A stretch of DNA of 47,759 nucleotides from the NCBI GenBank assembly GCA_903897145.1, contig CAIUAN010000023.1:1-47759 (forward strand). Reading direction: 5' to 3'. Below, one piece after another: positions 6,111 to 32,620 of this stretch (position 1 is its first letter; each line of letters opens with the position of its first letter). This DNA is from an uncultured Bacteroidia bacterium (GTDB lineage: Bacteria; Bacteroidota; Bacteroidia; Bacteroidales; Prolixibacteraceae). The position numbers and the translations under genes were made by a program. The notes under the pieces are model-generated. The model saw only the letters and a list, made by a program, of their open reading frames with translations, made no database searches and had not been told where the DNA came from.

Positions 6111-6229
6111 GAGCTAAGTTGTTCTGGGTTTAGTTTTTTTTAGACTGGTAAAAATATAAAACTAATTGAATTATTCTATTTGACGCAGTTTTAGCGCCCA
6201 TTTTTATTTCTATTTCTGATATTTTGTAT

Positions 6230-6237
6230 TATTTTTG
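6230..6237 (+). promoter_or_regulatory. Possible Bacteroidota -7 box upstream of the second GH29 gene
   Basis: The octamer TATTTTTG fits the Bacteroidetes -7 consensus TAnnTTTG. It lies about 100 bp before the ATG at 6339. A matching TTTG -33 box at the usual spacing is not evident, so support is weak. If real, transcription would begin near 6244 and the leader would contain the hairpin at 6280-6297. Confidence 0.28.
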
Positions 6238-6279
6238 AAACACTTTATTAAATTTTTTAAAAAGTTTTTAGTCGCCATG

Positions 6280-6297
6280 AGGATGCTCGGGCATCCT
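6280..6297. promoter_or_regulatory. Short perfect hairpin in the leader of the second GH29 gene
   Basis: AGGATGC, a TCGG tetraloop, then GCATCCT form a 7-bp perfect stem 41 bp before the ATG at 6339. It sits between divergent genes, so a terminator for a converging gene is unlikely. It could be a leader RNA structure or a protein-binding palindrome. The function is unknown. Confidence 0.4.
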
Positions 6298-6338
6298 AGT
6301 TTTGAGGCATTAATTTCAACTAAGTTAACTAGTCTAAT

Positions 6339-7787
6339 ATGAAGAATGTACTTTTAATAGTGTTCGTTTTTCTTTGTTCTTTTTCAATGGTTTACGGCCA
6401 GCATGAAGAGCAGAGCTATACCCCCGATCCAAGTCCAATCATTCAAAAGAGAATTGATCAATGGCAGGATATTAAGTTTGGACTTTTAATGCATTGGGGG
6501 CCCTATAGTCAATGGGGTATAGTTGAGTCGTGGTCGATTTGTCCTGAGGATGAAGGTTGGTGCCTTCCCGACACGGTGAAAAATTATTTCGCCTATAAAA
6601 AACAGTATGAAAATCTTGGTAATACCTTTAATCCGACAAAATTTGACCCTGAAAGATGGGCCAAAGCGGCCAAAGGTGCGGGTATGAAATATGTTGTATT
6701 TACGACCAAACACCACGATGGCTTCTGCATGTTTGATAGTAAATACACTGAATATAAAATTACTGGTGCAAACTGTCCATTTCACACAAATCCGAAAGCC
6801 GATGTGACTAAAGAGATCTTCAATGCTTTTCGCAAAGAGGGACTTTGGGTTGGCGCCTATTTTTCGAAGCCCGATTGGAATACTCCCGATTATTGGTGGT
6901 CTCATTTCCCTCCATTAGACCGTAATGTAAACTACGACCCTGCCAAATATCCGGAACGTTGGAATCGTTTTGTCAATTTTACCCACAATCAGGTGATGGA
7001 ACTTTGCACCAACTATGGCAAAATTGATTTGCTCTGGTTCGACGGAGGATGGGTACAGAAAAATGGCCCAATAGGTGAGAAGCCTGCGTATTCTGAAGGT
7101 TACAGAACAAAAAAGCGTTTTGATCAGGATATTAAGATGGATGAATTGGTGACTAAAATTCGCTCTAAGCAGCCTGAAGCAATTGTCGTCGATCGTGCAG
7201 TACCGGGTAAAAATCAGAATTATCTAACTCCAGAAAATACCGTTCCAGATAAGCTATTGCCTTATCCTTGGGAATCGTGCATTATCCTTGGTGGGGGCTG
7301 GTCGTATTCGTTTAATGCTAAGATGAGACCAACGCGTGAAATGATTCATATGTTGAATGATGTTGTTTCTAAGGGTGGTAATCTTTTGTTAAATATCGGT
7401 CCTGGACCAGATGGCACCTGGTATGATGAAGCATATGTTCGCTTAAATGAAATGGGCGAATGGTTAACAATAAATGGAGAAGCTATCTACTCTACGCGTC
7501 CAATTGCGCCTTATACAGATGGTCAGCTGCGTTTTACTCAGGATAAAAAGGGAGCTGCCAATATCATATACCTTTTAAAGGAGAACGAAAACCTTCCTTC
7601 TACGATTGCAGTGAATGGATTTTTTCCTGCCAAAGGATCAAAAATCAACCTTTTAGGAATAAAGGGTAGTCATCTTAAATGGAGTAAGAACGGCACCGGA
7701 TTTACTGTAGCAATACCGAAAGCTGTTGCAACTGCTCTTCCTTCTAAATATGCTGTGGTATTGCATATTAGTCAGATTGAAAAGTAA
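6339..7787 (+). CDS. GH29 alpha-L-fucosidase (second copy)
   Basis: A 482-residue exported enzyme with a signal peptide of about 20 residues (MKNVLLIVFVFLCSFSMVYG). GH29 marks are clear: IKFGLLMHWGPYSQWGIVESW, FTTKHHDGFCMFDSKYTEYK and KIDLLWFDGGWV. Asp235 is the predicted nucleophile. The stretch GGNLLLNIGPGPDGTWYDEA is followed by a C-terminal beta-sandwich from about residue 390. It is slightly longer than the first copy because of an insertion near residues 68-85 (SICPEDEGWCLPDTV). It leads a plus-strand run whose next gene, the ROK kinase, starts 31 bp downstream. The three GH29 copies in the window are clearly diverged, so they probably differ in linkage preference, for example core alpha-1,6 against antennary fucose. 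That is inference. Confidence 0.94.
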   Translation: MKNVLLIVFVFLCSFSMVYGQHEEQSYTPDPSPIIQKRIDQWQDIKFGLLMHWGPYSQWGIVESWSICPEDEGWCLPDTVKNYFAYKKQYENLGNTFNPTKFDPERWAKAAKGAGMKYVVFTTKHHDGFCMFDSKYTEYKITGANCPFHTNPKADVTKEIFNAFRKEGLWVGAYFSKPDWNTPDYWWSHFPPLDRNVNYDPAKYPERWNRFVNFTHNQVMELCTNYGKIDLLWFDGGWVQKNGPIGEKPAYSEGYRTKKRFDQDIKMDELVTKIRSKQPEAIVVDRAVPGKNQNYLTPENTVPDKLLPYPWESCIILGGGWSYSFNAKMRPTREMIHMLNDVVSKGGNLLLNIGPGPDGTWYDEAYVRLNEMGEWLTINGEAIYSTRPIAPYTDGQLRFTQDKKGAANIIYLLKENENLPSTIAVNGFFPAKGSKINLLGIKGSHLKWSKNGTGFTVAIPKAVATALPSKYAVVLHISQIEK

Positions 7788-7795
7788 TTATTCGA

Positions 7796-7807
7796 CCTAA
7801 CCTTAAC
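7796..7807 (+). promoter_or_regulatory. Shared 12-nt leader motif before the ROK kinase
   Basis: CCTAACCTTAAC ends 11 nt before the ATG at 7819. The identical 12-mer ends 11 nt before the third GH29 ATG at 33856. A looser form, CTAATCTTAAA, sits 10 nt before the GH2 start. It could be a translation-enhancing leader or an operator, and function is not established. Confidence 0.3.
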
Positions 7808-7818
7808 TGAAATATAGA

Positions 7819-8754
7819 ATGAGTTCAATTGCAATTGGTGTAGATGTTGGTGGCAGTCATGTGAGTTGTGTCGCCTGCGATTTAAGTGCTAAAAAAACAC
7901 TCGATGGTACTTTTTCAGAGAATGATCTTGATAACCAGGGTACTGCTGACGAAATAATTGCCGTTTGGAGTAAAACGATTAAGGCATCGATCGATAAGGT
8001 GGGAATCGAGAATGTTTCTGGTATAGGTTTTGCCATGCCTGGACCATTCGACTATGCCAAAGGGATAGCCCTTTTTAAAGGGAACAATAAAAAATATGAA
8101 AACATCTATGGTTTAGATGTGCCTCAAGCCCTGCGCAAAACTATCGGGCTAAAAGTAGATTTTCCTATCAGGTTTATTAACGATGCCACGGCTTTCGCAC
8201 TTGGCGAAGATTGGATCGGGAAAAATGTAGGCTTTAAAAAGTCGATGGCTATTACCTTAGGGACCGGCTTTGGTTCTGCCTTTCTGAGTCATAGTCTTCC
8301 TGTGGTTGCTGGTGACGAGGTTCCAGAATCTGGTTGCGTGTGGTATCTCCCTTTTAAAGACGGCAATGCGGATGATTACTTCTCTACACGAGGATTTTTA
8401 AATCGTTATTTTGAACAAACCGGAGTACAACTTAATGGAGTTAAGGAACTTGCTGAAAGTGCAAGCTCAGATCCGAAAGCTAAAGCGCTTTTTGCTGATT
8501 TTGGCACTCAACTTGGATTGTTTTTGTCCCCCTATATCCTTAAATTTGGCGCTGAGTCTTTAGTGATCGGTGGGAATATTTCATACTCATTTGATCTGTT
8601 TGAAAATCAGCTTTTGGAAAGCTTTAAAAGTAAAGGTGTCGAGATTCATGTAGCTGTTTCTGAGTTAAAAGAGTCAGCTGCCATGATTGGAAGTGCCGTA
8701 TTGGTGGATGAAAACTACTACCAGCAAGTAAAAGAGCTATTACCATTGATGTAA
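7819..8754 (+). CDS. ROK-family sugar kinase
   Basis: A 311-residue cytosolic kinase with no signal peptide, expected to phosphorylate a released hexose such as glucose, mannose or N-acetylmannosamine with ATP. The phosphate-1 motif GVDVGGSHVSCV, the catalytic stretch RFINDATAFALGE (Asp122 as base) and the phosphate-2 motif TLGTGFGSAF are seen. The usual ROK zinc motif (Cys-rich CxCGxxGC) is missing: the corresponding stretch reads PESGCVWYLPFKDG. This is known in some family branches, and it makes substrate assignment by homology unsafe. The gene lies in the run GH29-ROK-GH2-(alpha/alpha)6-transglutaminase with gaps of about 30-50 bp or less. A mannokinase role suits the alpha-mannosidase-rich context but is inference. 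Confidence 0.88.
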   Translation: MSSIAIGVDVGGSHVSCVACDLSAKKTLDGTFSENDLDNQGTADEIIAVWSKTIKASIDKVGIENVSGIGFAMPGPFDYAKGIALFKGNNKKYENIYGLDVPQALRKTIGLKVDFPIRFINDATAFALGEDWIGKNVGFKKSMAITLGTGFGSAFLSHSLPVVAGDEVPESGCVWYLPFKDGNADDYFSTRGFLNRYFEQTGVQLNGVKELAESASSDPKAKALFADFGTQLGLFLSPYILKFGAESLVIGGNISYSFDLFENQLLESFKSKGVEIHVAVSELKESAAMIGSAVLVDENYYQQVKELLPLM

Positions 8755-8803
8755 TCATTTCATAACCTTATTATAACCTAGTCTAATCTTAAATTTGTCT
8801 TCA

Positions 8804-11413
8804 ATGAGAATTAAATTTTGCGTGGCTTTAGCCTTTCTAATTTTATCGAATAATGCTTTTTCGCAGCACCAAACAATCATGCTAAACAATGGATGGAAAG
8901 CAAAAAAAGCCAGTGAATTAGTGGTTGATGGAACCATCATATCGAGCAAAGATTTTAAACTTTACGATTGGATGGACGCTGTGGTACCGGGCACGGTCCT
9001 TACGACTTTACTTCACAATGGCAAAGTTCCAGATCCTTTCTTTGGGATGAATAACGAGCAAATACCTGATATTTATGAGGTCGGAGCTGCTCACTATACC
9101 TACTGGTTCTTCAATGAGTTCAACCTTCCGAAAGTAAATAATGGGGATCAAGTTTGGTTGAAATTCCGAGGGATCAACTATTCGGCTGAACTGTTTGTAA
9201 ACGGACAGAAAATTAACCCAGATAATCATCAAGGGATGTATTTACGTGAGAAATATCTCATCACCCCTTATCTTACTAATGGCTCAAACAGATTGGCGGT
9301 ACTCGTTCATCCTCCCGATCCTGTTGGAGCGCCAAATGGCCAGGGTGGTGATGGCACAATCGCGCGGTCTGTGACTATGCAGTTTACTGCTGGATGGGAT
9401 TGGATCTGTCCGATTAAAGATCGAAATACCGGTATTTGGGATGAGGTAAGCATTGAAACTACGGGATCTGTAGATCTTTTGGACCCTTTTGTTCAAACTC
9501 TTGTTCCTGGCAAGCGTGTTCCTGGAGGGAGACAAGAACCAGCTGTGATCCATTCATCAGCCGATCTTCTAAATAGTTCTTTAACAATACAAACAGGAAT
9601 TCTCGTTGCACGTTGCGGTGCTCAGGAGGTTTCTAAAAAGATTTCAATTCCTGCTGGCGAAAAAATATCGGTTAGTCTGCCTGAATTTAAGATTCAGAAT
9701 CCACAACTTTGGTGGCCGAATGGTACTGGCGATCATCCACTCTATCAAATGGAGTTTTCATATAAAAAAGAGGATGGTTCTTTGTCGGATCAAGAAAAAG
9801 TATCCTTTGGCATTCGGCAGACTTCCACGCATTTTGATTCTAAGCTGAATGCCCGGGTATTTTCAATCAATGGACAGAATATTTTTATTAAGGGTGGCAA
9901 TTGGATCGCCTCAGATGCTTTGTTGCGTCTTTCCCCTGAGCGTTATGATGTAGATGTGCGGATGCATGCTCAGATGAATATGAATATGATTCGAGTCTGG
10001 GGCGGATCAATGACAGAACGACCTGATTTTTATGATGCTTGTGATAAATATGGACTTTTAGTCTGGCAAGATCTTTTTATCTCTGGCGATTGCAACGGAC
10101 GCTGGTTCGATCCGATGAAGAAGGAGAGCCAAGATCGTAGACGTGCCTACCCTGATAATCACTCGCTATTTATCTCTACGGTTGTCGATCAGACTAAGAT
10201 GCTACGTAATCATCCTAGTCTTTACCTGTGGTGCGGTGGAAACGAATATCCACCTCCAGCAGATATTGATGCGAAGTTGAAAAATGATATTTTTCCTAAG
10301 TTTGATCCAACTCGCTTCTATTTAGACCAATCCACCTCTACTGATCTATCGAAAAACGAAGCCGGAGTCAATGGTGATGGTCCGTATACCATTCAAAATC
10401 CTCTTAGCTTTTTTACCGTTAAATCCTTTGCCTTTAACCCAGAATTGGGTTCTGTGGGTGTTCCAAACGTGGAGACGATGCGCAAAATAATGGAGGAAAA
10501 AGACCTTGTAGTACCATCTAATGAATTGATAAATCCAGTATGGGTCTATCATAAATACATAAAATACCAGGATTATATTGATAACTATGGTAAGGCAAAT
10601 GAAATTGTAGATTTTTGCAAAAAGGCACAAATTGTTAATTACGAGCAGTATAGGGCGCTTCAAGAAGGTTTTAATGCTGGCATGTGGAAGACTTATACTG
10701 GTATGCTAGTTTGGAAAAATCAAAATCCTTGGACCGCCTTGCGCGGACAGTTTTATGATGTTTTTCTGGAGCAGAACGGCGGTTTCTATGGCTATCAACA
10801 TGGTGCAAAACCGATCCATGCTCAATTAAACTTAAATGATTCATCTGTTTGTATAGTGAATCAAACAGTTAAAGAACTTCGGGATCTGACTGTTGTGGTG
10901 GAGCAAATGGATATTCATGGACGTGTGCTCTCTTCTGAAAAAATTCAATCTACTATTGGCGCAAATATGATTGCGAACGTGGGTCATGTTGCACAGCCAA
11001 AGACCACTGATGAGGTTTACTTCCTAAGGCTTCAGGTGCTTGATCAAGCGAAATCAGTTCAAGATGAAAACATCTATTGGCTTTCAAAACCAGGCAAGAG
11101 TTATACTCAACTAAATAACCTTGTAACAACCTCTATTAATGCCCAAGTAAAATCGGTAGATAAGGGAAAAAAGATCGTTCATGTGGTGAATCCTGGAACT
11201 GAAACGGCCTTTTTTATCCGTCTGAAATTTCTGCAAGGTGACCTTGGCGAGCTTGCCCTTCCTGTGTTCTTTTCCGATAATTATATCACCTTATTTCCAG
11301 GAGAATCGAAAGATGTCGAAGTTGACTGCTCTCAGATTATGAATTCATCTAAATCATTATCATTTGCCGCTGAAGGTTGGAACGTTAAAAACACAGTTTT
11401 TAAATTCGAATAA
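8804..11413 (+). CDS. GH2 enzyme resembling plant endo-beta-mannosidase (N-glycan core)
   Basis: A 869-residue exported glycosidase. ATG 8804 is preferred over an upstream in-frame TTG at 8795 because the signal peptide (MRIKFCVALAFLILSNNAFS) begins there. Order: jelly-roll (about 25-200, FRGINYSAELFVNG), Ig-like (about 205-325, WWPNGTGDHPLYQ), TIM barrel (about 330-650) and C-terminal beta domains. The acid/base is Glu481 in CGGNEYP and the nucleophile Glu547 in FNPELGSVGVPNVETM. The stretches VWVYHKYIKY, FCKKAQIVNYEQYRAL, LVWKNQNPWTALRGQFYD and GGFYGYQHGAKPIHAQLNL closely resemble, from memory, the plant mannosylglycoprotein endo-beta-mannosidase. That enzyme cuts the Man-beta-1,4-GlcNAc bond of the N-glycan core. 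An exo-beta-mannosidase or exo-glucosaminidase is the alternative. Confidence 0.88.
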   Translation: MRIKFCVALAFLILSNNAFSQHQTIMLNNGWKAKKASELVVDGTIISSKDFKLYDWMDAVVPGTVLTTLLHNGKVPDPFFGMNNEQIPDIYEVGAAHYTYWFFNEFNLPKVNNGDQVWLKFRGINYSAELFVNGQKINPDNHQGMYLREKYLITPYLTNGSNRLAVLVHPPDPVGAPNGQGGDGTIARSVTMQFTAGWDWICPIKDRNTGIWDEVSIETTGSVDLLDPFVQTLVPGKRVPGGRQEPAVIHSSADLLNSSLTIQTGILVARCGAQEVSKKISIPAGEKISVSLPEFKIQNPQLWWPNGTGDHPLYQMEFSYKKEDGSLSDQEKVSFGIRQTSTHFDSKLNARVFSINGQNIFIKGGNWIASDALLRLSPERYDVDVRMHAQMNMNMIRVWGGSMTERPDFYDACDKYGLLVWQDLFISGDCNGRWFDPMKKESQDRRRAYPDNHSLFISTVVDQTKMLRNHPSLYLWCGGNEYPPPADIDAKLKNDIFPKFDPTRFYLDQSTSTDLSKNEAGVNGDGPYTIQNPLSFFTVKSFAFNPELGSVGVPNVETMRKIMEEKDLVVPSNELINPVWVYHKYIKYQDYIDNYGKANEIVDFCKKAQIVNYEQYRALQEGFNAGMWKTYTGMLVWKNQNPWTALRGQFYDVFLEQNGGFYGYQHGAKPIHAQLNLNDSSVCIVNQTVKELRDLTVVVEQMDIHGRVLSSEKIQSTIGANMIANVGHVAQPKTTDEVYFLRLQVLDQAKSVQDENIYWLSKPGKSYTQLNNLVTTSINAQVKSVDKGKKIVHVVNPGTETAFFIRLKFLQGDLGELALPVFFSDNYITLFPGESKDVEVDCSQIMNSSKSLSFAAEGWNVKNTVFKFE

Positions 11414-11414
11414 A

Positions 11415-12716
11415 ATGAAAAAGCCTTGGTTGTTGATTTTCGTTTTTTTCTTTGCAAGTCTAGTCTCTCTGCCTACAAAAGCGCAGATAGCTAATGATGC
11501 GCTGAAAAGTCAGATCAAGACAAATACCTATTTTCAGTTTGTGAAGACGAAGGCACTCGAGGTGATGAAAGCTGGGTTTAATGCCGGTGATGGCTACCGC
11601 GAAGTATGGATTCGTGATTTTAATACCTTTATCGAACTCGCCTCTAAAGTCAATGAGAAGGCCATCTTGAAAGAGAATTTGTTGGTCTTCTTTCGAATGC
11701 AAGGCGACAATGGAAATATATTGGATGGTTTTACGCCCATCGATAAGGTGGATAAGTCGGACTACAATTTTTATTATTCCAAACTTGAACTTCGCTATGC
11801 CGGTCATAAAAATACGGTAGAGACCGATCAAGATAGTTCTTTGATTCAAGCGGTGTCTAAATATGTTACCTTAACTGGTGATAGCTCAATCTTACAAGTT
11901 CAAATTGGGGATAAGAAAGTGGGCGAGCGCCTAGAATGGGCTGTCGACTTTCTAATGAAAAACCGGATGAGTAAAAAATATGGATTATTAGTTGGTGCGA
12001 CAACGGCTGATTGGGGTGATGTTCAGCCGGAACATGGGTGGGGCGTGGTGCTCGATGCAAATACCCATCCAGCCATTGATATTTACGATAACGCGATGTT
12101 TCTAATTGCTCTTAATGACTTATCCAAACTCATCCCTACCCACCAAGAAAAATGGAATTCAGTGCATCAGTCGATTTTCCAAAATTGCCGTAAGTACCTT
12201 TGGGATGGTAAAAATCAAAAATTTATTCCGCACCTCTATCTCGAGAAAGGTTCTCCATTCCCGAAAGATTTTGATGAGAATAACATCTACTATTTTGGTG
12301 GAACCACAATTGCTATTGAAGCTGGATTGCTGAATAAACAGGAGATTCATGCCTCCATACTTGAGATGATCAAGCGGGTTAAATTAGCTGGGGCTGGATC
12401 GATCGGTTTAACTTTATATCCTCCATATCCGAAAGGATTCTTCGCCAATAAAATAATGAATCCGGAATATAGCTATCAGAATGGTGGCGATTGGACTTGG
12501 TTCGGAGGACGGATGATACAAGAGCTTGTTCGAAATGGATTTATCCAAGAAGCGTATGAGCAAATTCAACCGATGGTCAAGCGAGTAAAAGATAACAATG
12601 GTTTTTACGAATGGTATTCTGTCGATAATAAGCCGCGTGGATCAGGAACGTTTAGAGGTGAGGCTGGAGTGCTTTATAGCGCAATCACCATATTTGAAAA
12701 CTGGACTAAAAATTAA
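11415..12716 (+). CDS. Putative secreted (alpha/alpha)6-barrel glycosidase
   Basis: A 433-residue exported protein starting one base after the TAA of the GH2 gene, so the two are almost certainly co-transcribed. ATG 11415 is chosen because MKKPWLLIFVFFFASLVSLPTKAQ is a clean signal peptide. A longer frame from 11364 would overlap the GH2 gene. The all-helical pattern and blocks YREVWIRDFNTFIE, TTADWGDVQPE, DIYDNAMFLIALNDL, YYFGGTTIAIEAGL, NGGDWTWFGGRM and GSGTFRGEAGVLYSAI resemble amylo-alpha-1,6-glucosidase/GH63-type toroids. I cannot assign a numbered family. The Asp in WIRDF and the acids in the ADWGD and RGEAG loops are candidate catalytic residues. It may process the mannose-containing product of the GH2 enzyme, which is inference. 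Confidence 0.7.
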   Translation: MKKPWLLIFVFFFASLVSLPTKAQIANDALKSQIKTNTYFQFVKTKALEVMKAGFNAGDGYREVWIRDFNTFIELASKVNEKAILKENLLVFFRMQGDNGNILDGFTPIDKVDKSDYNFYYSKLELRYAGHKNTVETDQDSSLIQAVSKYVTLTGDSSILQVQIGDKKVGERLEWAVDFLMKNRMSKKYGLLVGATTADWGDVQPEHGWGVVLDANTHPAIDIYDNAMFLIALNDLSKLIPTHQEKWNSVHQSIFQNCRKYLWDGKNQKFIPHLYLEKGSPFPKDFDENNIYYFGGTTIAIEAGLLNKQEIHASILEMIKRVKLAGAGSIGLTLYPPYPKGFFANKIMNPEYSYQNGGDWTWFGGRMIQELVRNGFIQEAYEQIQPMVKRVKDNNGFYEWYSVDNKPRGSGTFRGEAGVLYSAITIFENWTKN

Positions 12717-12766
12717 CAATTGATTAAACTTAGCTTATAACAAATAAATTTTTAAAGACTTACACG

Positions 12767-15448
12767 ATGTATCGCACAAAAACCCTTCTTAGCCTTTTAA
12801 TTATTTTACTTATCTCTTCGTTTGTCTCTGGTCAAGCTTTGATAAAAGACCCTTCGAGAATTGCTGATATTCAGCGTATGTTAAAGGTTCAGAAGGATCT
12901 CACCTCAAAAAGTTTAATACCCATTTGGGATGTGTTTAATCGTCCATTAACACAAAGTGAAAAGCAAGCCTTGGAATTTTTATACGCTTATATGCCATTA
13001 AGTGATTTGGCAGATTATAAACCTGAGTTTTTCCTTAAGAATGCTCAATTAAGTCTATTGGCAATGCAAGAGATGCCTTGGGGAAAGAAGATTTCTGAAG
13101 GCGACTTTCTCCATTTTGTTTTGCCATTAAGGGTTAATAATGAAAATCTTGACGATTTTAGAGCCGTTATGTATCCGGAGATTAAGGCACGTATAAAAGG
13201 GATGAGCATGAAGGATGCAGCACTGGAGATCAATCATTGGTGTCACGAAAAGGTCAACTATAGAGGGACTGATTCACGCACCAGTGCACCCTTAAGTACG
13301 GTGAAGAAATCGTTTGGTCGCTGTGGTGAAGAGTCAACATTTACGGTAACAGCTTTGCGTACAGCTGGCATTCCTGCTCGTCAAGTGTATACCCCACGTT
13401 GGGCGCACTCCGATGATAATCACGCTTGGGTGGAGATTTGCATCGATGGCAAATGGAATTATTTAGGCGCTTGTGAGCCAGATGCTGATTTGAATATGGG
13501 CTGGTTTAGTGAGCCTGCAAGTCGTGCTATGTTGGTGCATACTCGTGCCTACGGTCGTTATTTTGGCTCTGATCCAGTTATCCAAGCAAACGATCGCTTT
13601 TCGGAGTTAAACCTTACAGCGAACTATGCCCCTGTAAAGAAGATTGTCGTCCGGATTAAGGATGCCAAAGGGTTGAAAGTGGATAGTGCCAAAGTGGAAT
13701 ATCAACTTTATAATTATGCCGAATATTATCCGATCTCAACGAATTATACATCTAAAAATGGGTTGAGCACGTTGATTACGGGGATGGGCGATTTAGTGGT
13801 CTGGGCCTCTAAAAATGGGAAATTTGCATTTCAGAAATTCTCTGTTCCAGCATCTGATACCCTGGATCTGATTCTTAATCAGCGTGTGCCGAATGAGAAA
13901 AAGGTCTCTTATGATTTTATCCCGCCTCATGCGGCTAAAATTAAGGTAACCGTATCGGAAAAGGCGAGTAAAGAGAATGCGCGCCGATTTGGAGAAGAGA
14001 ATGAAATCCGTAGTGCCTATATGCGCACCTTTAAAGATTCTAGTTATATTGCTGCCTTTGCCTCAAAAAATAAGTTACCTTTTGATACCCTCTCTCGATT
14101 CTTTAAACTGAGTTATGGAAACTGGGCAGATCTTTCTCATTATCTTGAGAAAAATGCTGGTCTGAAACGTCAAAACTTATTGGAGATGATTGTTCAGATC
14201 GCTGACAAGGATTTTAGTGATACTCCGGAAGCTATTCTGACGGATCATTTACTTCAAGCGAATAAGTCAACTGTTCGTCAAGCTGGTCTCTCGAAAGAGA
14301 TTTATACCCGTTATATTCTTTCGCCCCGCATTGATCTGGAGATGCTAACTCCCTGGAGAAGTTTTCTTTATCAGAATTTAGGGTCATTAAAGATCACCGA
14401 CGCGACACAGTTGTCAACTTGGATCCGGCAAAATATTACCATTAATACCGTTTCAAATAATCATTCTCGTACACCTCTTTCACCAAAAGGGGTCTATAAT
14501 TTAAGAGTCGCTGATCCACTTTCACGCGATATATTCTTCGTGGCCGCTTGTCGGACTTTTAATATACCGGCCCGTTTAAACCCTGAAAATCGTCAGCCTG
14601 AATATTATAAAAATGGAACGTGGTTGCGTGCTGGCTTTGAAAATCTGGAAGCCATACAACCTGAAAAAGGGTTTTTAACGTTGATCAACAAAAGTAAGGA
14701 TGTGACACCGCAATACGCCTTGCATTTTACCATCGCTTATCTTAAGAATGGTTTCTATCGAACTCTTGATTTTCCTGAGGGAAAAGCATTAAGTGAGTCG
14801 AAAGATCCTATTCAATTGGATATTGGTCATTATGCCTTGGTGACTGGGAATCGTCAACAGGATGGCTCTGTTTTAAGCAATATGACCTTCTTTACCATTG
14901 AGAAATCAAAGACTACAACCGTGGCAATTGAGATGCGCAAGCAATCGGGTGTGCTGAAGCCAACAGGTAAGCTTAAACTAGCCCAACTGAATTTTCAAGA
15001 TTTGTCAACCAATAAGGTCTCTAGTCTAAATGCTTTAGTGGCATCAAAAAGCTCCGTGATTGTCCTTCTAAACCCAGAGCAAGAACCGTCTAAGCATATC
15101 CTTAATGACCTGGGTCCTTATGCCAGTCATCTGAATAACTGGGGAGGTGAATTTATCTTTGCAGTGGCTGAGGATAAAGTCTCTCAGGCTGGCGTTTTAA
15201 AGACTTATCTCTTGCCGAATCAAAAGTTGGTGGGTGTCGATCAAAAGGGGAATATCTTAAAAGCCCTAACCGACATTTATGGTGAAGGATTGAAAGATAA
15301 GATGCCCTTGGTTGTCTTGGCCGATCAGACAGGGAATATCTTTTTATTCTCTTCAGGTTACAAGATTGGTATTGGAGAGCAGATCCTGAAAGTTATCTCA
15401 GGTCTGCCTAAAGCTTCGGTAACTAGTGCCTCTTGTACCATTAAATAA
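12767..15448 (+). CDS. Secreted transglutaminase-fold protein with Cys-His-Asp triad; possible N-glycan amidase
   Basis: An 893-residue exported protein (signal peptide about 1-22). A transglutaminase core spans about residues 145-260 with a complete triad: Cys186 in GRCGEES, His219 in NHAWVEI and Asp239 in ACEPDAD. A beta-sandwich follows at about 285-375 (VDSAKVEYQLYNY). Residues about 560-640 look like a second, degenerate transglutaminase core (SRDIFFVAACRTFNIPARL) with Pro584 where the catalytic Cys would be. The C-terminus (about 760-885) resembles a thioredoxin fold without CxxC. The family is widespread in Bacteroidota as a transglutaminase-domain protein of unknown function. RCGE and HAWVE also recall peptide:N-glycanase (Png1/NGLY1), and the surroundings degrade N-glycans. 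Peptidase or transamidase activity is the alternative. Confidence 0.75.
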   Translation: MYRTKTLLSLLIILLISSFVSGQALIKDPSRIADIQRMLKVQKDLTSKSLIPIWDVFNRPLTQSEKQALEFLYAYMPLSDLADYKPEFFLKNAQLSLLAMQEMPWGKKISEGDFLHFVLPLRVNNENLDDFRAVMYPEIKARIKGMSMKDAALEINHWCHEKVNYRGTDSRTSAPLSTVKKSFGRCGEESTFTVTALRTAGIPARQVYTPRWAHSDDNHAWVEICIDGKWNYLGACEPDADLNMGWFSEPASRAMLVHTRAYGRYFGSDPVIQANDRFSELNLTANYAPVKKIVVRIKDAKGLKVDSAKVEYQLYNYAEYYPISTNYTSKNGLSTLITGMGDLVVWASKNGKFAFQKFSVPASDTLDLILNQRVPNEKKVSYDFIPPHAAKIKVTVSEKASKENARRFGEENEIRSAYMRTFKDSSYIAAFASKNKLPFDTLSRFFKLSYGNWADLSHYLEKNAGLKRQNLLEMIVQIADKDFSDTPEAILTDHLLQANKSTVRQAGLSKEIYTRYILSPRIDLEMLTPWRSFLYQNLGSLKITDATQLSTWIRQNITINTVSNNHSRTPLSPKGVYNLRVADPLSRDIFFVAACRTFNIPARLNPENRQPEYYKNGTWLRAGFENLEAIQPEKGFLTLINKSKDVTPQYALHFTIAYLKNGFYRTLDFPEGKALSESKDPIQLDIGHYALVTGNRQQDGSVLSNMTFFTIEKSKTTTVAIEMRKQSGVLKPTGKLKLAQLNFQDLSTNKVSSLNALVASKSSVIVLLNPEQEPSKHILNDLGPYASHLNNWGGEFIFAVAEDKVSQAGVLKTYLLPNQKLVGVDQKGNILKALTDIYGEGLKDKMPLVVLADQTGNIFLFSSGYKIGIGEQILKVISGLPKASVTSASCTIK

Positions 15449-15457
15449 GGTGAAGTC

Positions 15458-15487
15458 AAGTAATCTGAATTCGTATTCAGATTACTT
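15458..15487. terminator. Hairpin between convergent genes (bidirectional terminator candidate)
   Basis: AAGTAATCTGAAT and ATTCAGATTACTT form a perfect 13-bp stem around a TCGT loop. It sits exactly between the stop codons of the transglutaminase-fold gene (plus) and the RND exporter (minus), and the right arm overlaps the exporter's stop codon. No long T-tract follows on either side, so termination is inferred from symmetry and position. Confidence 0.6.
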
Positions 15488-20742: not shown

Positions 20743-20806
20743 AATAAGTTGTATTTGCAAGCTATAAATACCAAAGTTTAGTGTCAATTAATTTTGAAAA
20801 AGTTCG

Positions 20807-23787: not shown

Positions 23788-26019
23788 ATGAAATTAGTAT
23801 TCGCAAATTTCCTCTTTGCTCTTCTCTTTTTTGCATCGTGTCAGTCGATTGATATTACCAAGTATGTCGATCCTAATATCGGTACTCTGGCCACTTTGTT
23901 AGCGGTTAAAAATCCTACCGTTCATCGTCCGCATAGCATGATTCGCGTCTATCCTGTAACTAAACCTGGGTTCACAGATCGCTATTTAAGTGATAAAATA
24001 TATGGTTTTGCATTGAATATGCCGGCATATCGTGTTGGGCATGTGACCGAAATTATGCCTACCTCTGGAATACTTAACGTGAATCAACATGAGTCTGCAT
24101 CTTCCTATGACCATGATCAAGAACAAGTGCACCCTTGGTATCATAAAGTTATATTGGAGGATTCAAACATTGAAGCCGATTGGACAACCACCGAGCGTGC
24201 TGTTGTATATCGGTTTAGTTTCAAAGGTCAGGATGCAAAGCAAATCATTTTCCGGGGAGATCATAAAGCCTTTTTTACGGTTACGGGAAATTCTATCGTT
24301 CAAGGGTGGGAAGATTCTTTTCAGACGAAACAATATTTCTATGCCGAGCTAAGTACTCCTTTTAACCGTTCAGGATCTTTTGAAAAAAATGTCGTGAGTG
24401 ATAAGAGCGAGATTTCTGGAAATAGCGTAGGCGTTTATGTTGGTTTTGAAAAGCTCGACAAGCCGATTGAAGTTCGTGTTGGAATATCTCTGATTAGTCA
24501 GGAGCAAGCTATGAAAAATCTGCATGCCGAAATGCAGGGTAAGAATTTTGACGATATCCAAGGTGAGAGTCATCGTATCTGGGCAAAAGAATTGGGTAAA
24601 GTACAAGTCGAAGGGGGTACAGAACGACAGAAGCGGATTTTTTATACTTCCCTGTATCGTTGTAATGAAAGAATGGTAGATATCACTGAAGACGGTCAAT
24701 ATTATAGCGGATACGATAAGCAAATTCATCAAAGTGACGGACACCCTTTCTTTGTCGATGATTGGCTTTGGGATACCTATCGTGGCTTACACCCTTTGAT
24801 GCTAATTTTAAATCCAGCTCAGCAAGGTGAGATGGTACAGTCCTATGTGAAGATGTATGAGCAGAGTGGCTGGATGCCTAGCTTTCCTCAGTTCTATGGT
24901 GATTTCTCAGCTATGATCGGATTTCATTCAGCTGCCTTAGTCTGGGATTCCTATCAAAAGGGAGTTAAGAATTTTGATGTGCAAAAAGCGTATGAAGGAC
25001 TTCGTAAAAATGCCATGGAAGCAACTATGTTACCTTGGCGCTCTGGTCCGATGTGCTCCTTGGATAGTTTTTATCAGAAAAATGGATGGTATCCAGCTCT
25101 GCCTCAAGATAGCGCAGAGACCGTTTCACTGGTTGATGGGTTTGAAAAACGTCAGGCTGTGGCGCTTACACTTGAACATAGCTACGACGACTGGTGCTTG
25201 GCTCAGTTAGCTAATGCACTTGGAAAAAGGGATGATTACACGTACTTTTTAAAAAGATCAAAGAATTACCGCAATGTGTTTAATCCAGCGACAGGATTTA
25301 TGGCTCCTAAAATGGCCAATGGAAAATGGGTTGAGCCTTTCGATCCGCAGCTTTCAGGAGGAATAGGTAGTCGAGCCTATTATGCAGAGAATAACGCCTG
25401 GACTTGGAATTTTAGCGTAACTCAAGATATTCCAGATCTAATAAATCTATTGGGTGGTAATGAGAAATTTGTCAAACGAGTGGATGCCTTGTTCAATGAA
25501 CCAACACATATCTCCAAATGGCAGTTTATGGGACAGTTTCCCGATGCCACTGGTCTGAATGGGATGTTCGTGACTGGCAATGAACCATCATTTCATATTC
25601 CATACTTGTATAATTATGCTGGTCAGCCCTGGAAAACCCAACGTCGTATTCGTGAAATTATGGACCTCTGGTTCGACGACCGACCATTAGGTATCCCTGG
25701 TGACGAAGATGGTGGTGGATTATGCTCTTGGTATGTGTTCTCTGCTATGGGATTCTTTCCTGTTACCCCAGGAAGTGGTATATATGCCTTGGGAAGTCCA
25801 TTCTTTAGTAGTGTAAAGATTCAACTTCCCGAAGGTAAGACTTTTCAAGTACTCGCCGAAGGATGCTCCCAGAAAGCCAAGTATATTCAGTCGGCTAAGC
25901 TCAACGGAAAGGTACTGGAATCGGCATTTATTCGCCACCAAGATATTATGAATGGTGGAAAACTTCATCTGGTAATGGGGACTAAGCCAAATAAATCATG
26001 GGGTCTAAAACCTTTGTAA
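23788..26019 (+). CDS. GH92 alpha-mannosidase, putative lipoprotein
   Basis: A 743-residue Ca-dependent exo-alpha-mannosidase. The N-terminal region ends in FFASCQS, a plausible though weak lipobox, so it may be surface- or periplasm-anchored. The GH92 opening YVDPNIGTL is followed by VDDWLWDTYRGLHPLM and DFSAMIGFHSAALVWDSY. The block GNEPSFHIPYLYNYAGQPWKT contains the family general acid, expected at Glu599. GDEDGGGLCSWYVFSAMGFFPV supplies Asp639 and Asp641, the usual base region. The His-Glu-Pro-Ser-His-His form tied to alpha-1,2 specificity is absent: Asn precedes the Glu and Phe replaces the first of the two His. Another linkage is therefore likelier. It is divergent from paralogue B and upstream of GH38. 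Confidence 0.94.
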   Translation: MKLVFANFLFALLFFASCQSIDITKYVDPNIGTLATLLAVKNPTVHRPHSMIRVYPVTKPGFTDRYLSDKIYGFALNMPAYRVGHVTEIMPTSGILNVNQHESASSYDHDQEQVHPWYHKVILEDSNIEADWTTTERAVVYRFSFKGQDAKQIIFRGDHKAFFTVTGNSIVQGWEDSFQTKQYFYAELSTPFNRSGSFEKNVVSDKSEISGNSVGVYVGFEKLDKPIEVRVGISLISQEQAMKNLHAEMQGKNFDDIQGESHRIWAKELGKVQVEGGTERQKRIFYTSLYRCNERMVDITEDGQYYSGYDKQIHQSDGHPFFVDDWLWDTYRGLHPLMLILNPAQQGEMVQSYVKMYEQSGWMPSFPQFYGDFSAMIGFHSAALVWDSYQKGVKNFDVQKAYEGLRKNAMEATMLPWRSGPMCSLDSFYQKNGWYPALPQDSAETVSLVDGFEKRQAVALTLEHSYDDWCLAQLANALGKRDDYTYFLKRSKNYRNVFNPATGFMAPKMANGKWVEPFDPQLSGGIGSRAYYAENNAWTWNFSVTQDIPDLINLLGGNEKFVKRVDALFNEPTHISKWQFMGQFPDATGLNGMFVTGNEPSFHIPYLYNYAGQPWKTQRRIREIMDLWFDDRPLGIPGDEDGGGLCSWYVFSAMGFFPVTPGSGIYALGSPFFSSVKIQLPEGKTFQVLAEGCSQKAKYIQSAKLNGKVLESAFIRHQDIMNGGKLHLVMGTKPNKSWGLKPL

Positions 26020-26309: not shown

Positions 26310-28979
26310 ATGAAAACTACGATCAATCTATTTTTGATGGCTGTCTTGGGCTTTTGCTTATCATCTGGCACCTGCCATGCTAAAAAAATGACCACGAAAG
26401 TTCCTATGGCAAAAGATACCATTCATGTTGTTGGTCATGCCCACATGGATATGAATTGGCTTTGGACGTGGTCTGAGACCATGAAAACAGCGAATGATAA
26501 TCTTCGTCAAACAGTAGCTTTTATGGATGAATATCCCGACTTTACCATGATCCAAAGTCAGGCTTCGGTGTATACTTTCGTTGAAAAAGTTGATCCACCT
26601 CTTTTTGAACTGGTGAAGAAATATGTCAAACAAGGCAGACTTGAACTTGGTGGTGGTATGTGGACTGAAGGGGATATGAACCTCTCGTCAGGCGAAGCCA
26701 TCACCAGAACATTCCTTCTTGCCCAGCGCTTTTTTCAAAGTCGATTTGGTAAGATGGCGCACGTGGGTTGGCTTCCCGATAATTTTGGACATATCTCTCA
26801 GATGCCACAGATCTTAAAACTCGCCGGCTGCGACTACTTTTATTTTCATCGCACAAAACCATTTAAAGGTTCCTTCTATTGGATGGGTAGCGACTCATCT
26901 AAGGTTATTTGTTATGCCAACGACACCTACAATGGAGAAATTAATCTTAATCTTAAAGATGAGCTGAAGAAGATCACGCCTGATAAGCATCGAATGCTTC
27001 AGATTACCGGTATTGGCGATCATGGCGGTGGTCCAACTCGCGAAAATATTGAGATGGTTCATAAGCTAGATAAGATGCCCGATTACCCTGCCGTAAAATT
27101 TAGCACCGCCGGTAGCTTCTTCAACAAAATTTCACGCGAGATGGCAGGAAGACCGACTCATTTTGGGGAGATGCAGTTTATCTTCGAGGGTTGCTATACC
27201 AATGTCTCCGACAATAAGGAGGGAAATCGGAACTGCGAAAATATGCTTTATAGTAGTGAGTTTTTTAATTCCTTAAGATGGATCAATGGCGAACAATATC
27301 CAGCAACTGAACTGCGCGATTGCTGGACGAATGTGGCCTTTAACCAATTTCATGATATTCTTCCTGGATCAGCTATTAACGAATCAAACAAAGAGACGTA
27401 TGGTCGTTATGCCGATGTTTTGCGTAAATCAACTGATTTAAGGGATAACGCTTTTCGCCACATGGCCGATGAGGTTAAATTCAAAAAAGATCTAGGTCAG
27501 CCAGTAGTTGCTTACAATCAGCATCCTTCAAAACGTAAAACTATTGTGGAGGCAAGCGTTTATAGTCATACCGAACCTTTTACAATTAAAGCGAATAACT
27601 GGGGCGATTTTTATGGTTCGAAGAAAATTAAGCCAATCGATAAAGGTCAAGGTAATGTTGCGACTGTCTTGGTTCGCGATGGTTCGGGTAAGAGCTATCC
27701 AGCACAGATCGTTTGGTCTAAGGTTACCCCTCCAGGATTTACCACGAAGGTTCAATTTGTTGTAGATGATCTTCCTGCTGGTGGCTATAAAACATTTTAT
27801 GTCGATGTAACTAAGCCTGGCGAATTTAATGAGCCAATTTCATATAACGATCAAACCTTTGAAACCGATTTCTTTAAGATTAAGGTCGATCTAAAAACCG
27901 GTGGCATCGTAAGTCTAATCGATAAACGTACGAATGTTGAATGTGTCAAGTCAGGCGGTCGTTTAAATACCTTGAGGATGTTCTTGGAAGATCGTAAAGG
28001 AGGGATGAAATCATGGGTGCTGAATAAAAATATGAAGATTGAAGATGTCACCGATGTGAAGAGTGTAAAAATCGTTGAGAACGGTCCGGTTAGAGCTTGC
28101 ATCGAAACCGTTAAAGGTTGGGGTAAGTCAAAATTTATTGAGCGTGCCTATATCTATCGTGCCTATCCTCGTATTACCTACGATATGGAAGTTCATTGGC
28201 TTGAGACAGGTAGCGACTCGACCGATTCGCCTATGTTGCGCGCCGTCTTTCCTTTAGCCATCCAGAAATCTAAATTTTTCTGTCAGGTTCCTTTCGACAT
28301 CGTGGAAAGACCTGCCGATGGAATGCTTCATGGTCTGCCAGTACCTGAGGCTCTAAAACATCGTAATGATTATGGAGTTATCTCTGAACCCAATGATGGA
28401 CAGGAAGTGCCGGCTCAGAAATGGGTCGATGTGAACGATGGACAAACAGGAATAGCTTTACTCAATAAAACGAAATATGGTCATTCATTCGAAAAAGGGG
28501 AGTTGCGAATCTCGCTGTTGCGATCAGCTGGTGATCCAGATATCTATCCTAACCTTGGTAAGTTTAACATTAGTTACGCTATTTATCCTCATGGAGCCGA
28601 CTGGCAAAGTGAGGTGTGGGCTGAAGGTGATGATTTTAATGTTCCAGTTTATGCCGCTGAACCTCCTTCGTTAGCTCTTGTTAAGGAACATGCCACGCGC
28701 CCAGAAGAGGCTTCATTCTTCTCCTTGCTGCCATCTAATGTGGCGATGACCGGAGTGAAACAAGCCGAAGATGGCAATGAACTTATTGTTCGATTGGTGG
28801 AGATTGCTGGCAAAGAATCTTCGTCTGAACTTACCCTGCCTGCGGATGTAAAAGCTGCCAGAGTTTTAAATATCCTTGAGCTTCCACTTGAGAATGCTCA
28901 AAATCCCACTTTTAAAGATAAGACAGTTCTCATAAAAATTAAGCCACATCAAATAATCACGTTAGGTATAAAATTTTAA
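26310..28979 (+). CDS. GH38 alpha-mannosidase
   Basis: An 889-residue exported Zn-dependent alpha-mannosidase. The signal peptide covers about 1-24 (MKTTINLFLMAVLGFCLSSG). Zinc ligands and nucleophile fit the family: GHAHMDMNWLW gives His45 and Asp47, WLPDNFGHISQMP gives Asp157 as nucleophile, and GDHGGGPTREN gives His238. A helical domain (about 290-390, NVAFNQFHDILPGSAI) and the long C-terminal beta-sandwich (about 420-889) complete the usual length. The next gene starts 5 bp after the stop, so they are co-transcribed. GH38 enzymes trim alpha-1,2/1,3/1,6 mannose from N-glycans, and linkage preference is not readable. Confidence 0.94.
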   Translation: MKTTINLFLMAVLGFCLSSGTCHAKKMTTKVPMAKDTIHVVGHAHMDMNWLWTWSETMKTANDNLRQTVAFMDEYPDFTMIQSQASVYTFVEKVDPPLFELVKKYVKQGRLELGGGMWTEGDMNLSSGEAITRTFLLAQRFFQSRFGKMAHVGWLPDNFGHISQMPQILKLAGCDYFYFHRTKPFKGSFYWMGSDSSKVICYANDTYNGEINLNLKDELKKITPDKHRMLQITGIGDHGGGPTRENIEMVHKLDKMPDYPAVKFSTAGSFFNKISREMAGRPTHFGEMQFIFEGCYTNVSDNKEGNRNCENMLYSSEFFNSLRWINGEQYPATELRDCWTNVAFNQFHDILPGSAINESNKETYGRYADVLRKSTDLRDNAFRHMADEVKFKKDLGQPVVAYNQHPSKRKTIVEASVYSHTEPFTIKANNWGDFYGSKKIKPIDKGQGNVATVLVRDGSGKSYPAQIVWSKVTPPGFTTKVQFVVDDLPAGGYKTFYVDVTKPGEFNEPISYNDQTFETDFFKIKVDLKTGGIVSLIDKRTNVECVKSGGRLNTLRMFLEDRKGGMKSWVLNKNMKIEDVTDVKSVKIVENGPVRACIETVKGWGKSKFIERAYIYRAYPRITYDMEVHWLETGSDSTDSPMLRAVFPLAIQKSKFFCQVPFDIVERPADGMLHGLPVPEALKHRNDYGVISEPNDGQEVPAQKWVDVNDGQTGIALLNKTKYGHSFEKGELRISLLRSAGDPDIYPNLGKFNISYAIYPHGADWQSEVWAEGDDFNVPVYAAEPPSLALVKEHATRPEEASFFSLLPSNVAMTGVKQAEDGNELIVRLVEIAGKESSSELTLPADVKAARVLNILELPLENAQNPTFKDKTVLIKIKPHQIITLGIKF

Positions 28980-30743: not shown

Positions 30744-31418
30744 ATGAAACGTAGCGAAATAAATCAAATCCTATTAAAAGCGAAGGCTTTTATGGCAGAG
30801 AAGCAATTTATCCTGCCACCATGGGCCTACTGGAGTCTCGACGATTGGAAAAATAATAAGCTGGATACTCACGAAATCATTGATAACATGCTGGGTTGGG
30901 ATATCACCGACTTTGGTTCTGGTGATTTTTATCAACGTGGATTATTCCTATTTACCATTCGGAATGGTAAGTTAAATAAAGATCGTAAGCCCTATGCCGA
31001 GAAGATTATGATCGTTGAGGAGAACCAAGAGACCCCAATGCATTTTCATTGGGCTAAGATGGAAGATATCATTAACCGCGGTGGGGGAAACCTAGTCATC
31101 GATCTTTACCAGTCTGATAAGGATGAGAATTACTCAAATGACTCATTACGTGTTAAGACCGATGGTGTCGCTCGTACCGTTGAGGCTGGAGGATCGGTAA
31201 TTCTTAAACCAGGTGAGAGCATCTGTTTAGAACAAGGTGTTTATCACCGATTTTATGGGGAGCCAGGGAGAGGTAAAGTGCTTGTAGGTGAAGTGAGCAG
31301 CGTGAATGACGATGCCTCAGACAACCGTTTCTATGAGCCTATTGGGCGTTTCCCAATTATTGAAGAGGATGAACTTCCAATCCATCTTCTAGCATCTGAT
31401 TATGCTAATTTCTTGTAA
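30744..31418 (+). CDS. D-lyxose/D-mannose isomerase (cupin)
   Basis: A 224-residue cytosolic cupin of the D-lyxose ketol-isomerase type, which interconverts D-lyxose with D-xylulose and often D-mannose with D-fructose using a divalent metal. The metal ligands are His100, His102 and Glu107 in PMHFHWAKMEDI, and His168 in VYHRFYGEPG. Length and the blocks WAYWSLDDW and GRFPIIEEDE fit the family. It is first in a tight operon: the PfkB kinase starts 3 bp after its stop. Among three alpha-mannosidases, mannose to fructose is the more likely reaction. That preference is inferred from context. Confidence 0.86.
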   Translation: MKRSEINQILLKAKAFMAEKQFILPPWAYWSLDDWKNNKLDTHEIIDNMLGWDITDFGSGDFYQRGLFLFTIRNGKLNKDRKPYAEKIMIVEENQETPMHFHWAKMEDIINRGGGNLVIDLYQSDKDENYSNDSLRVKTDGVARTVEAGGSVILKPGESICLEQGVYHRFYGEPGRGKVLVGEVSSVNDDASDNRFYEPIGRFPIIEEDELPIHLLASDYANFL

Positions 31419-31420
31419 GG

Positions 31421-32620
31421 ATGAGTAAAAAAATTATGGTTGCTGGCACAGGCTGTGCGCTAGCTGACTACCTCTACACTGACATCCGTTTTAACGAAAC
31501 TGCCTTCCAAAAATATCGCTCTGTCAAATCAGGTGATGGGGGATTGGCACCCGGAAGACTTGTCTTTACTGAAGAGTTAGAGGCGTTTTCGGGAGAGTCG
31601 TATGCCGATATTCATAAGGAAATTACAGGAGGTAAAACTCCTACAGCTATTAATGTTGGTGGACCAGGTCTGGTATCGTTAATAAATACTGCTCAACTTC
31701 TTTCATCTGAAAATATTGAGGTTCACTTTTATGGCGGAACTGGCTCGGATGATACCGCTGAATGGATCCATCAATTGGTTAAGAAAACACCGCTTGATAC
31801 AACTCATTATCGCCGTATTTCACAGCGCCGAACCCCATTTACTGATGTGTTATCCGATCAGACGTACGATAATAACCAGGGCGAACGTACCTTTATCAAT
31901 AATATCGGTGCTGCTTGGGATTATACCCCTGATCTATTAGGTTCCGATTTTTTCAAGGCTGATATCGTCTGCTTCGGAGGGACTGCCTTAGTACCACAGA
32001 TTCATGATAGTCTCACTGACTTGCTTCATAAAGCCAAGGATAATGGATGTGTTACGGTCGTAAATACCGTATTTGACTTCCGCAATGAGAAAAAAAATCC
32101 AGATCAACCATGGCCATTAGTTGTTAAGTCCAATCAACATAATTTGATAGATTTGTTAATTATGGATTGCGAAGAGTCTTTGAAAATTAGTGGTCAGAAA
32201 TCCATTGATAGCGCGGCTGAATATTTTATAAACCTTGGGATCTCAACGTTGATCATTACCAATGGAGCGCAAGACCTTTGTGCCTATTCGAATGGTGACT
32301 TGTTTGAAAAGAGTGCGCTTGTGAAATTGCCTGTTTCGAAAAAGGTCAATGAAGATTTTATATCCAATCCAGCTCTAAAAGGGGATACGACCGGGTGTGG
32401 TGATAATTTTGTGGGTGGTGTGATTGCCTCTTTAGCTTTTCAATTAAGTAATCATGCAAAAGGAACTTTAAATTTTATAGATGCCTTGGCTTGGGGAATA
32501 GCTTCTGGCGGATATACGTGTTATTACCTTGGCGGGACTTATATTGAGAAAGTTCAAGGCGAGAAAAGGGCTATCATCGAAGAGTTTAAGAATAATTACC
32601 TTCAGCAAATAGAATCTTAA
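31421..32620 (+). CDS. PfkB-family carbohydrate kinase
   Basis: A 399-residue cytosolic ribokinase-fold kinase. The signature GDTTGCGDNFVGGVIASL holds the anion hole and catalytic base (Asp328). The N-terminal sugar-binding Gly-rich stretch TAINVGGPGLVSLINTAQLL and the acceptor region FYGGTGSDDTAEWI are seen. It is longer than typical fructokinases (about 300 residues), with extra N-terminal sequence and an insertion near residues 210-240. Its stop overlaps the next start (TAATG), which implies translational coupling. Between a mannose/fructose isomerase and a mannitol-1-phosphate dehydrogenase homologue, phosphorylation of fructose is the simplest assignment. A different sugar is possible. 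Confidence 0.86.
   Translation: MSKKIMVAGTGCALADYLYTDIRFNETAFQKYRSVKSGDGGLAPGRLVFTEELEAFSGESYADIHKEITGGKTPTAINVGGPGLVSLINTAQLLSSENIEVHFYGGTGSDDTAEWIHQLVKKTPLDTTHYRRISQRRTPFTDVLSDQTYDNNQGERTFINNIGAAWDYTPDLLGSDFFKADIVCFGGTALVPQIHDSLTDLLHKAKDNGCVTVVNTVFDFRNEKKNPDQPWPLVVKSNQHNLIDLLIMDCEESLKISGQKSIDSAAEYFINLGISTLIITNGAQDLCAYSNGDLFEKSALVKLPVSKKVNEDFISNPALKGDTTGCGDNFVGGVIASLAFQLSNHAKGTLNFIDALAWGIASGGYTCYYLGGTYIEKVQGEKRAIIEEFKNNYLQQIES

Follow-up and report, generated by a model that had tools for sequence, protein, structure and literature searches.

An open reading frame with an ATG start in a 47,759-nucleotide stretch of contig CAIUAN010000023.1 (the window), from an uncultured member of the Prolixibacteraceae in the order Bacteroidales, is intact and encodes an 893-residue transglutaminase-fold protein, for which TG is used as a working name. 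TG is almost mutually exclusive with glycosylasparaginase (GA), the enzyme that cuts the bond between N-acetylglucosamine (GlcNAc) and asparagine. The reading favored from sequence comparison, with a probability of roughly 0.55, is that TG would be an analogue of GA, a secreted cysteine amidase of transglutaminase fold with GlcNAc-Asn or very short glycopeptides as substrates. That it hydrolyzes the GlcNAc-Asn bond in some form, whether GA-like or release-type, is probable, and the chances seem evenly balanced that in much of the Bacteroidales a TG-fold amidase has replaced the Ntn-type GA, through a swap at one place in the operon, CutC being a shared partner. It is the exclusivity with GA, together with occupancy of GA's operon position in some loci, that points to the final GlcNAc-Asn step.

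A PF01112 search of 149 relatives yielded two classes of match, and comparison of one member of each with PDB identified the weaker-scoring class as glycosylasparaginase (E 3.5e-109) and the stronger-scoring one as isoaspartyl peptidase/asparaginase (E 1.8e-83). With hand-compiled lists and cuts of E<=1e-150 for TG, more than 140 bits for PNGase F and the ~220-250-bit PF01112 class for GA, just two genomes have both TG and GA (12.1 expected), 51 have TG only, 32 GA only and 64 neither (p 1.2e-5); for the window's own family the corresponding numbers are 2, 37, 29 and 22 (p 1.1e-7). A second sample, of 393 Bacteroidales genomes, some in common with the 149 relatives, has TG in 129, GA in 38 and both in none (12.5 expected; p 1.7e-7). 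Absence in draft genomes can be false; confining the count to genomes at least 90% complete and at most 5% contaminated leaves TG in 117 and GA in 27 of 326 (p 3.8e-6), and dropping the two weaker GA hits, G690 and G770, gives p 3.2e-7. Exclusion is also strong inside GH92-positive genomes (p 2.7e-8), and GH92 itself is present in 83 of the 85 genomes with TG or GA (52 of 53 for TG) versus 33 of 64 with neither (p 5e-12).

The exclusion is specific to GA. Among the 149 relatives TG shows none toward the isoaspartyl peptidase class of PF01112 (p 1) or toward a second transglutaminase family (p 0.84), and both were dropped as exclusion partners. A phylum-wide test was also abandoned, TG being found in just 4 of 395 genomes, which is too few. 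The second transglutaminase family, whose members have ~400-450 residues, co-occurs with GA (17/34, p 1.8e-5), and in two genomes a match to it lies within ~1.2 kb of a weak match to PF09113 (G046, contig C1, ~2673242-2675323; G067, contig C3, ~89777-91804).

The separate line of evidence comes from operons. The 48 GA loci compared are all 38 of the order sample plus 10 of the relatives; N-glycan-type glycosidases are present in 21 (GH92 in 13, GH20 in 12, GH2 in 9). In TG loci L236 and L238 the order, with closely packed frames, is GH20-TG-CutC-GH2. In GA loci L188 and L200 it is CutC-GH2-GA-GH20 (with a gap of ~2.3 kb between GH2 and GA in L200), and in GA locus L214 it is GH2-GA-CutC-GH92-GH20. 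Between TG and GA loci the proteins in common are 35-52% (CutC), 34-42% (GH2) and 35-42% (GH20) identical. Of 40 newly collected TG loci, a non-random set drawn mostly from the better-scoring TG matches in the order sample, 13 have CutC within the retrieved sequence (next to TG and co-directional in 10), as do 5 of the 48 GA loci, versus 0 of 40 control loci. When the nine new loci that repeat loci of the set of 80 described below are omitted, 11 of 31 have it (p 3.3e-5 versus the 40 controls). In the earlier sets, described below, it was found in 6/80 and 2/19 TG loci, 0/20 paralogue loci and 0/20 arbitrary loci. This distribution suggests that CutC, named as a copper homeostasis protein, has a role in N-glycan or GlcNAc-Asn breakdown. 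CutC is beside TG in L229, L236, L238, L241, L245, L249, L251, L254, L257 and L263, and near GA in L180, L188, L200, L212 and L214. An aspartylglucosaminidase was expected by CutC in a rumen clade, but in L100 as in L105 neither of the two upstream genes encodes such an enzyme.

A preliminary description of the gene, made from its sequence, had proposed a Png1-like N-glycan amidase that supplies a missing release step. The GlcNAc-Asn amide chemistry is supported by the GA exclusion and the slot swap; the release step is not. The window's own genome does lack a PNGase F, GH85 or PF01112 match at E<=0.001 (it has four GH20 genes and one GH18, the motif of which is presumably of chitinase type), but in relatives TG does not stand in for PNGase F. 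PNGase F-type genes are in 59 of the 149 at E<=0.001, and a strong hit is in 18 of 53 TG genomes where 13.9 were expected (p 0.12), with no exclusion, because of which TG is not considered a substitute for the release step and was rejected as a PNGase F replacement. That TG releases N-glycans, intact or partly trimmed, from glycoproteins or from the longer glycopeptides, which would leave no GlcNAc-Asn, make GA unnecessary and likewise account for the GA exclusion, is a rather unlikely alternative. TG does belong to the fold class of Png1, and its profile alignment to mouse PNGase spans GRCGE, the HxWxE stretch and ACE. However, mouse PNGase does not reach significance in PDB searches with TG (E 0.35 with the single sequence, 0.11 with the profile), and in the structure prediction and comparison that had been advocated, Png1 is not among the best 50 Foldseek matches listed, either for the core alone or for whole TG. 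PNGase F is found both with TG and with GA (14/34), so that a release enzyme does not displace GA here; that TG is in GA's place in a few operons also fits less well with release than with a GA-like reaction.

Conservation of the active site was assessed in an alignment of 140 rows, 138 of which cover it (nine rows repeat loci already included, and fragments L081 and L086 are without the region). Invariant in all 138 are R185, C186, G187, E188, R211, W212, A213, H214, D216, N218, H219, A220, W221, E223, W230, G234, E237 and P238. Within the loop containing several of these (table), residues 213-215 have pLDDT <50 in the model. The motifs GRCGEES, RTAGIPAR and NHAWVEI, to which attention had been drawn, are all there. 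Of the Cys186-His219-Asp239 triad initially put forward, the Cys and His hold, whereas position 239 is D in 64 rows, E in 63, A in 10 and S in 1, and with no acid in 11 of 138 rows Asp239 is ruled out as the triad acid. Glu237 is likely the better candidate, as judged from conservation. Gly234 is at the position, four residues past the conserved Trp, that in the profile alignment corresponds to an Asp of Png1, which we take to be catalytic there; this too is at odds with close likeness to Png1. TG therefore also lacks, at this place, the acid looked for as a mark of the transglutaminase-like superfamily.

Comparison of folds raises the alternative that TG is a cysteine peptidase trimming the peptide part of glycopeptides in glycan-use operons, with the GA exclusion reflecting pathway differences between lineages. 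The putative cysteine protease 3isr has E 0.007 in the PDB profile search and, with the core alone, is the first Foldseek match, followed, among the matches listed, by S. pyogenes TglA, 3kd4, TG2, LapG and TG3; CPR-C4 is likewise among those listed. (The core-only model is of low confidence at fragment residues 137-160, which include the Cys, making this ranking soft.) 3isr, 3kd4, LapG and CPR-C4 are what a peptidase would lead one to expect, and many members of the TG family are away from glycosidases. But one would expect GA to be complemented, not excluded, by a peptidase, an active-site motif without variation in 138 rows is unusual for a broad peptidase, and three control families show no exclusion. 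Such a function is considered unlikely. TG2, TG3 and TglA, together with the transglutaminase-like core and multi-domain, secreted-looking character of the protein, would instead suit crosslinking or some other modification of proteins or the cell envelope, with the neighboring genes coincidental. Given the repeated link to GH92, GH20, GH2 and CutC, and the near-universal GH92 of TG genomes, this is very improbable.

Neighborhoods were surveyed in several sets of loci. The first comprises 80 TG loci on named contigs, the best 80 of 430, with flanks of up to 10 kb, in which GH92, GH38, GH20, GH2, GH29 and sialidase were scored. Since the hidden Markov models for neighbors were built from these 80 loci and the window, the count in the 80 is partly self-chosen; the deep set of 19 TG loci, the 40 new ones and the paralogue, arbitrary and GA sets had no part in building them (the GA profile is from L177). 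Controls were 20 arbitrary 20-kb stretches hand-picked in eight genomes, some without TG. Scored glycosidases flank TG in 43/80, 8/19 and 8/40 loci versus 0/20 arbitrary stretches (p 0.03 for the 40), and are near 6/20 in the paralogue control. The question, also raised in the preliminary description, of whether homologues occur mostly away from N-glycan genes thus has a mixed answer.

Other branches of TG have different surroundings: one has a LacI-TG pair with a TonB/FecCD set after it, another a DUF5916 set, and a third is the rumen set with CutC. In 8 of the 80 loci (L093, L095, L096, L098, L099, L103, L104 and L106) 8-16 bases separate TG from the end of a preceding LacI-type gene, and none of these loci has a scored glycosidase in its flanks; in L092 and L094 a distant LacI (27-31% identical) precedes GH38-TG-GH92. 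LacI beside TG is suggestive of sugar control without being decisive. TG is downstream of a DUF5916 (CBM9-like) gene, with 0-2 genes between, in L063, L065, L067, L069, L070, L074 and L077. For loci without glycosidases 162 neighbors were listed, and 20 were scanned along with nine proteins around CutC and other loci. Those scanned are of varied kinds (phosphotriesterase, amidohydrolase, esterase, RecA, PdxA, aldose epimerase, ROK, CutC and others) and do not converge on any one other theme.

Several considerations weigh against a GA-like amidase. Two of the 53 TG genomes (G042 and G076, of genera g5 and g11 in the window's own family) also have GA, and 33 of 116 GH92 genomes have neither. The full four-gene set is in only 2/40 TG loci and 3/48 GA loci, and L236 and L238 are such close relatives (CutC 89%, GH2 80% and GH20 88% identical) that they amount to about one case. 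None of the scored families is near TG in 37/80, 11/19 and 32/40 loci, in some due to contig ends; glycosidases are near TG in 5 of the 31 new loci that repeat none of the 80, which is not a significant difference from the 20 arbitrary stretches (p 0.07), and four of the eight positive loci in the 19-locus set (L122, L123, L124 and L126) are from one genus. By fold, the core matches the putative protease already mentioned best. Finally, the genomes are related and the exclusion p values were computed without a species tree. Counted by genus, TG is in 70 and GA in 25 of 207, with 2 shared (p 0.0029), and by family TG is in 50 and GA in 20, with 4 shared, of an estimated 120 (p 0.045). This weakening on pooling is what would be expected if TG and GA had simply been inherited in different clades, leaving exclusion uninformative on function, an account compatible with any function. 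Yet in the order sample both types are present in two genera (g254 and g72, with TG in some genomes and GA in others) and four families, and never in one genome; exclusion is strong in the window's own family and in GH92-positive genomes, and the slot swap is independent of it. Inheritance of that sort as the whole explanation is judged quite unlikely.

TG has a clear Transglut_core match (PF01841; E 2e-23, 83.2 bits against a curated cut-off of 23, Pfam residues 143-230), which is its sole clear Pfam domain, DUF553 being weak; the Pfam scan gave no match to PF01112 (Asparaginase_2) or to the PNGase F domain PF09113, and an NCBIfam scan gave none at all. Modeling with AlphaFold2 from 55 sequences gave a mean pLDDT of 88.4 and a pTM of 0.88. 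The layout can be read, from structure, sequence and fold matches together, as helices, core, beta-sandwich, helices, an apparent second transglutaminase domain, a further beta-sandwich (654-721) and finally a thioredoxin-like end; where the domains are taken to begin and stop, and that there is a second transglutaminase domain at all, is our own interpretation. The preliminary description had mentioned neither this domain nor the thioredoxin-like one. In the thioredoxin-like end E773 and H777 are invariant in all 136 aligned rows that cover them. The only Cys residues are 159, 186, 225, 236, 595 and 890. The predicted signal peptide is of plain type in TG and its two nearest relatives, and most other relatives have a lipobox (63 of the 78 with an N-terminus by strict pattern, and some of the remaining 15 on visual inspection).

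Table. TG, its parts and other genes of the window (positions in the window; evidence as in the last column)
Feature	Position	Strand	Evidence
TG, predicted-secreted transglutaminase-fold protein, candidate GlcNAc-Asn amidase	12767..15448	+	ORF, Pfam, model
Predicted signal peptide, ~residues 1-22	12767..12832	+	sequence
Catalytic transglutaminase core, residues 131-262	13157..13552	+	Pfam and model
Cys186, proposed nucleophile	13322..13324	+	invariant 138/138
Nearly invariant loop R211-N218 (RWAHxDDN), putative substrate loop	13397..13420	+	alignment, model
His219	13421..13423	+	invariant 138/138
Glu237, candidate third catalytic residue	13475..13477	+	invariant 138/138
Beta-sandwich, residues 290-384, same domain as PDB 3e8v (Bacteroides fragilis)	13634..13918	+	PDB and fold matches
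Degenerate second transglutaminase domain (as read), residues 546-641, no Cys/His pair	14402..14689	+	sequence and model
Thioredoxin-like domain, residues 742-880, no CxxC	14990..15406	+	sequence, model, fold match
GH29 alpha-L-fucosidase, opening the co-directional run that TG ends	6339..7787	+	domain match
ROK-family protein, sugar kinase type	7819..8754	+	domain match
GH2 enzyme, beta-mannosidase or exo-glucosaminidase type	8795..11413	+	matches including Ig_GlcNase, Mannosidase_ig
450-residue secreted-looking protein, weak GDE_C match, directly upstream of TG	11364..12716	+	domain match
GH92 alpha-mannosidase	23788..26019	+	domain match
GH38 alpha-mannosidase	26310..28979	+	domain match
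D-lyxose isomerase, PfkB kinase and mannitol-type dehydrogenase genes	30744..33816	+	domain match

TG ends a plus-strand run, GH29-ROK-GH2-GDE_C-like-TG, with small gaps or overlaps between the genes. A GH2 gene is indeed upstream of TG, as first described, but the GDE_C-like gene lies between the two, and the endo-beta-mannosidase identity of the GH2 enzyme, whose matches include Ig_GlcNase and Mannosidase_ig domains, is putative. The other genes then pointed out (GH38, GH92, GH29 and sialidase-type) are present, and downstream of TG there are GH92, two GH38, a second GH29, two sialidase-type (BNR) genes and mannose-use genes, the last being the likely role of the isomerase, PfkB and dehydrogenase genes. 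Homologues of PfkB and the dehydrogenase also adjoin TG in L057. The earlier statement that release enzymes are absent is correct for the 26 window frames of at least 150 residues, which have no PNGase F, GH18 or GH85 match. A promoter and terminator scan of 6100-15700 gave nothing exceeding the shuffled level.

Some nearby proteins merit attention in their own right. Homologues of the GDE_C-like protein are near TG in ten loci, the window included, and it is possibly an undescribed glycosidase. On the minus strand at 18067-20787 and 20807-23509 are tandem paralogous secreted-looking proteins of ~900 residues each, with no Pfam match and a final third that by eye resembles a beta-sandwich of mutarotase type; among the 80 TG loci, within flanks reaching at most 10 kb, they were seen only in the two nearest relatives, and they possibly represent an undescribed glycosidase family. 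Elsewhere in the same genome (L137:9261-11723, contig C7) is an 820-residue paralogue of TG, whose core has GNHxWVE and the Gly/Glu pattern; after the core is a region resembling an alpha/beta hydrolase by eye, and GH92 is downstream with one gene between.

On the favored reading of TG as a GA-like amidase, it would act late in N-glycan breakdown, in GA's place, on the amide that joins the innermost GlcNAc to asparagine. Alpha-mannosidases (GH92 and GH38), fucosidases (GH29), the GH2 enzyme and GH20 would trim the glycan, following which His219, with Glu237 the likely acid, would activate Cys186 for attack on the asparagine side-chain amide. Aspartate and 1-amino-GlcNAc would be released, the latter decaying to GlcNAc that the ROK kinase could then use. 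TG may perhaps also accept somewhat larger substrates than GA does.

In the available text of a review of bacterial N-glycan use (PMC10154615), the releasing families named are GH18, GH85 and PNGases, and the word "transglutaminase" is absent. A literature search, with most subscription journals outside its scope, yielded no report linking transglutaminase with N-glycan breakdown, PNGase, GH92 or GA. If the proposal is right, a family without known role, present in 129 of 393 genomes of the order, would be the GlcNAc-Asn amidase of many N-glycan-degrading bacteria and would illustrate the replacement of one enzyme by an unrelated one at a single operon position. It would also offer a new tool enzyme for the GlcNAc-Asn bond, and would suggest that CutC belongs to the GlcNAc-Asn pathway.

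Parallels with known structures are partial. The Bacteroides fragilis entry 3e8v, a "possible transglutaminase-family protein", consists of an 82-residue beta-sandwich that matches TG at ~residues 294-370 (E 8.1e-27 in the profile search; 41% identity and TMt 0.96 in Foldseek) and, unlike multi-domain TG, holds that domain only. 3isr, from Cytophaga hutchinsonii, is the best fold match to the core (Foldseek E 2.8e-4), but its TM-score is low (0.31), its function is putative and no match to other TG domains was seen. Png1/NGLY1 shares with TG a transglutaminase-like core with Cys then His, an ACE motif past the conserved Trp and, we infer, the type of bond cut. It has two CxxC pairs as its zinc site, of which TG has neither, and TG differs further in being predicted to be secreted, in its two-lobed form with extra domains and in having Gly at the Png1 Asp position.

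The closest functional counterpart is GA (EC 3.5.1.26; known from Elizabethkingia meningoseptica, and as AsnA2 from Lactobacillus casei), which cuts the bond that TG is proposed to cut, has GH20, GH2, GH92 and CutC as neighbors in common with TG, and occurs almost exclusively of it. The two are unrelated, GA belonging to the Asparaginase_2 family (PF01112), undergoing autocleavage and using threonine as nucleophile, and TG having a Cys/His transglutaminase core. According to the available text of the report on L. casei (PMC6960285), a fucosidase, the glycosylasparaginase AsnA2 and a ROK kinase there serve use of fucosyl-GlcNAc-Asn, the amidase products being Asp and 1-amino-GlcNAc. The run ending with TG in the window resembles that pathway. 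A fucosidase and a ROK protein accompany TG, no GA was found in the genome, and it would be simplest to suppose that TG performs the GA reaction.

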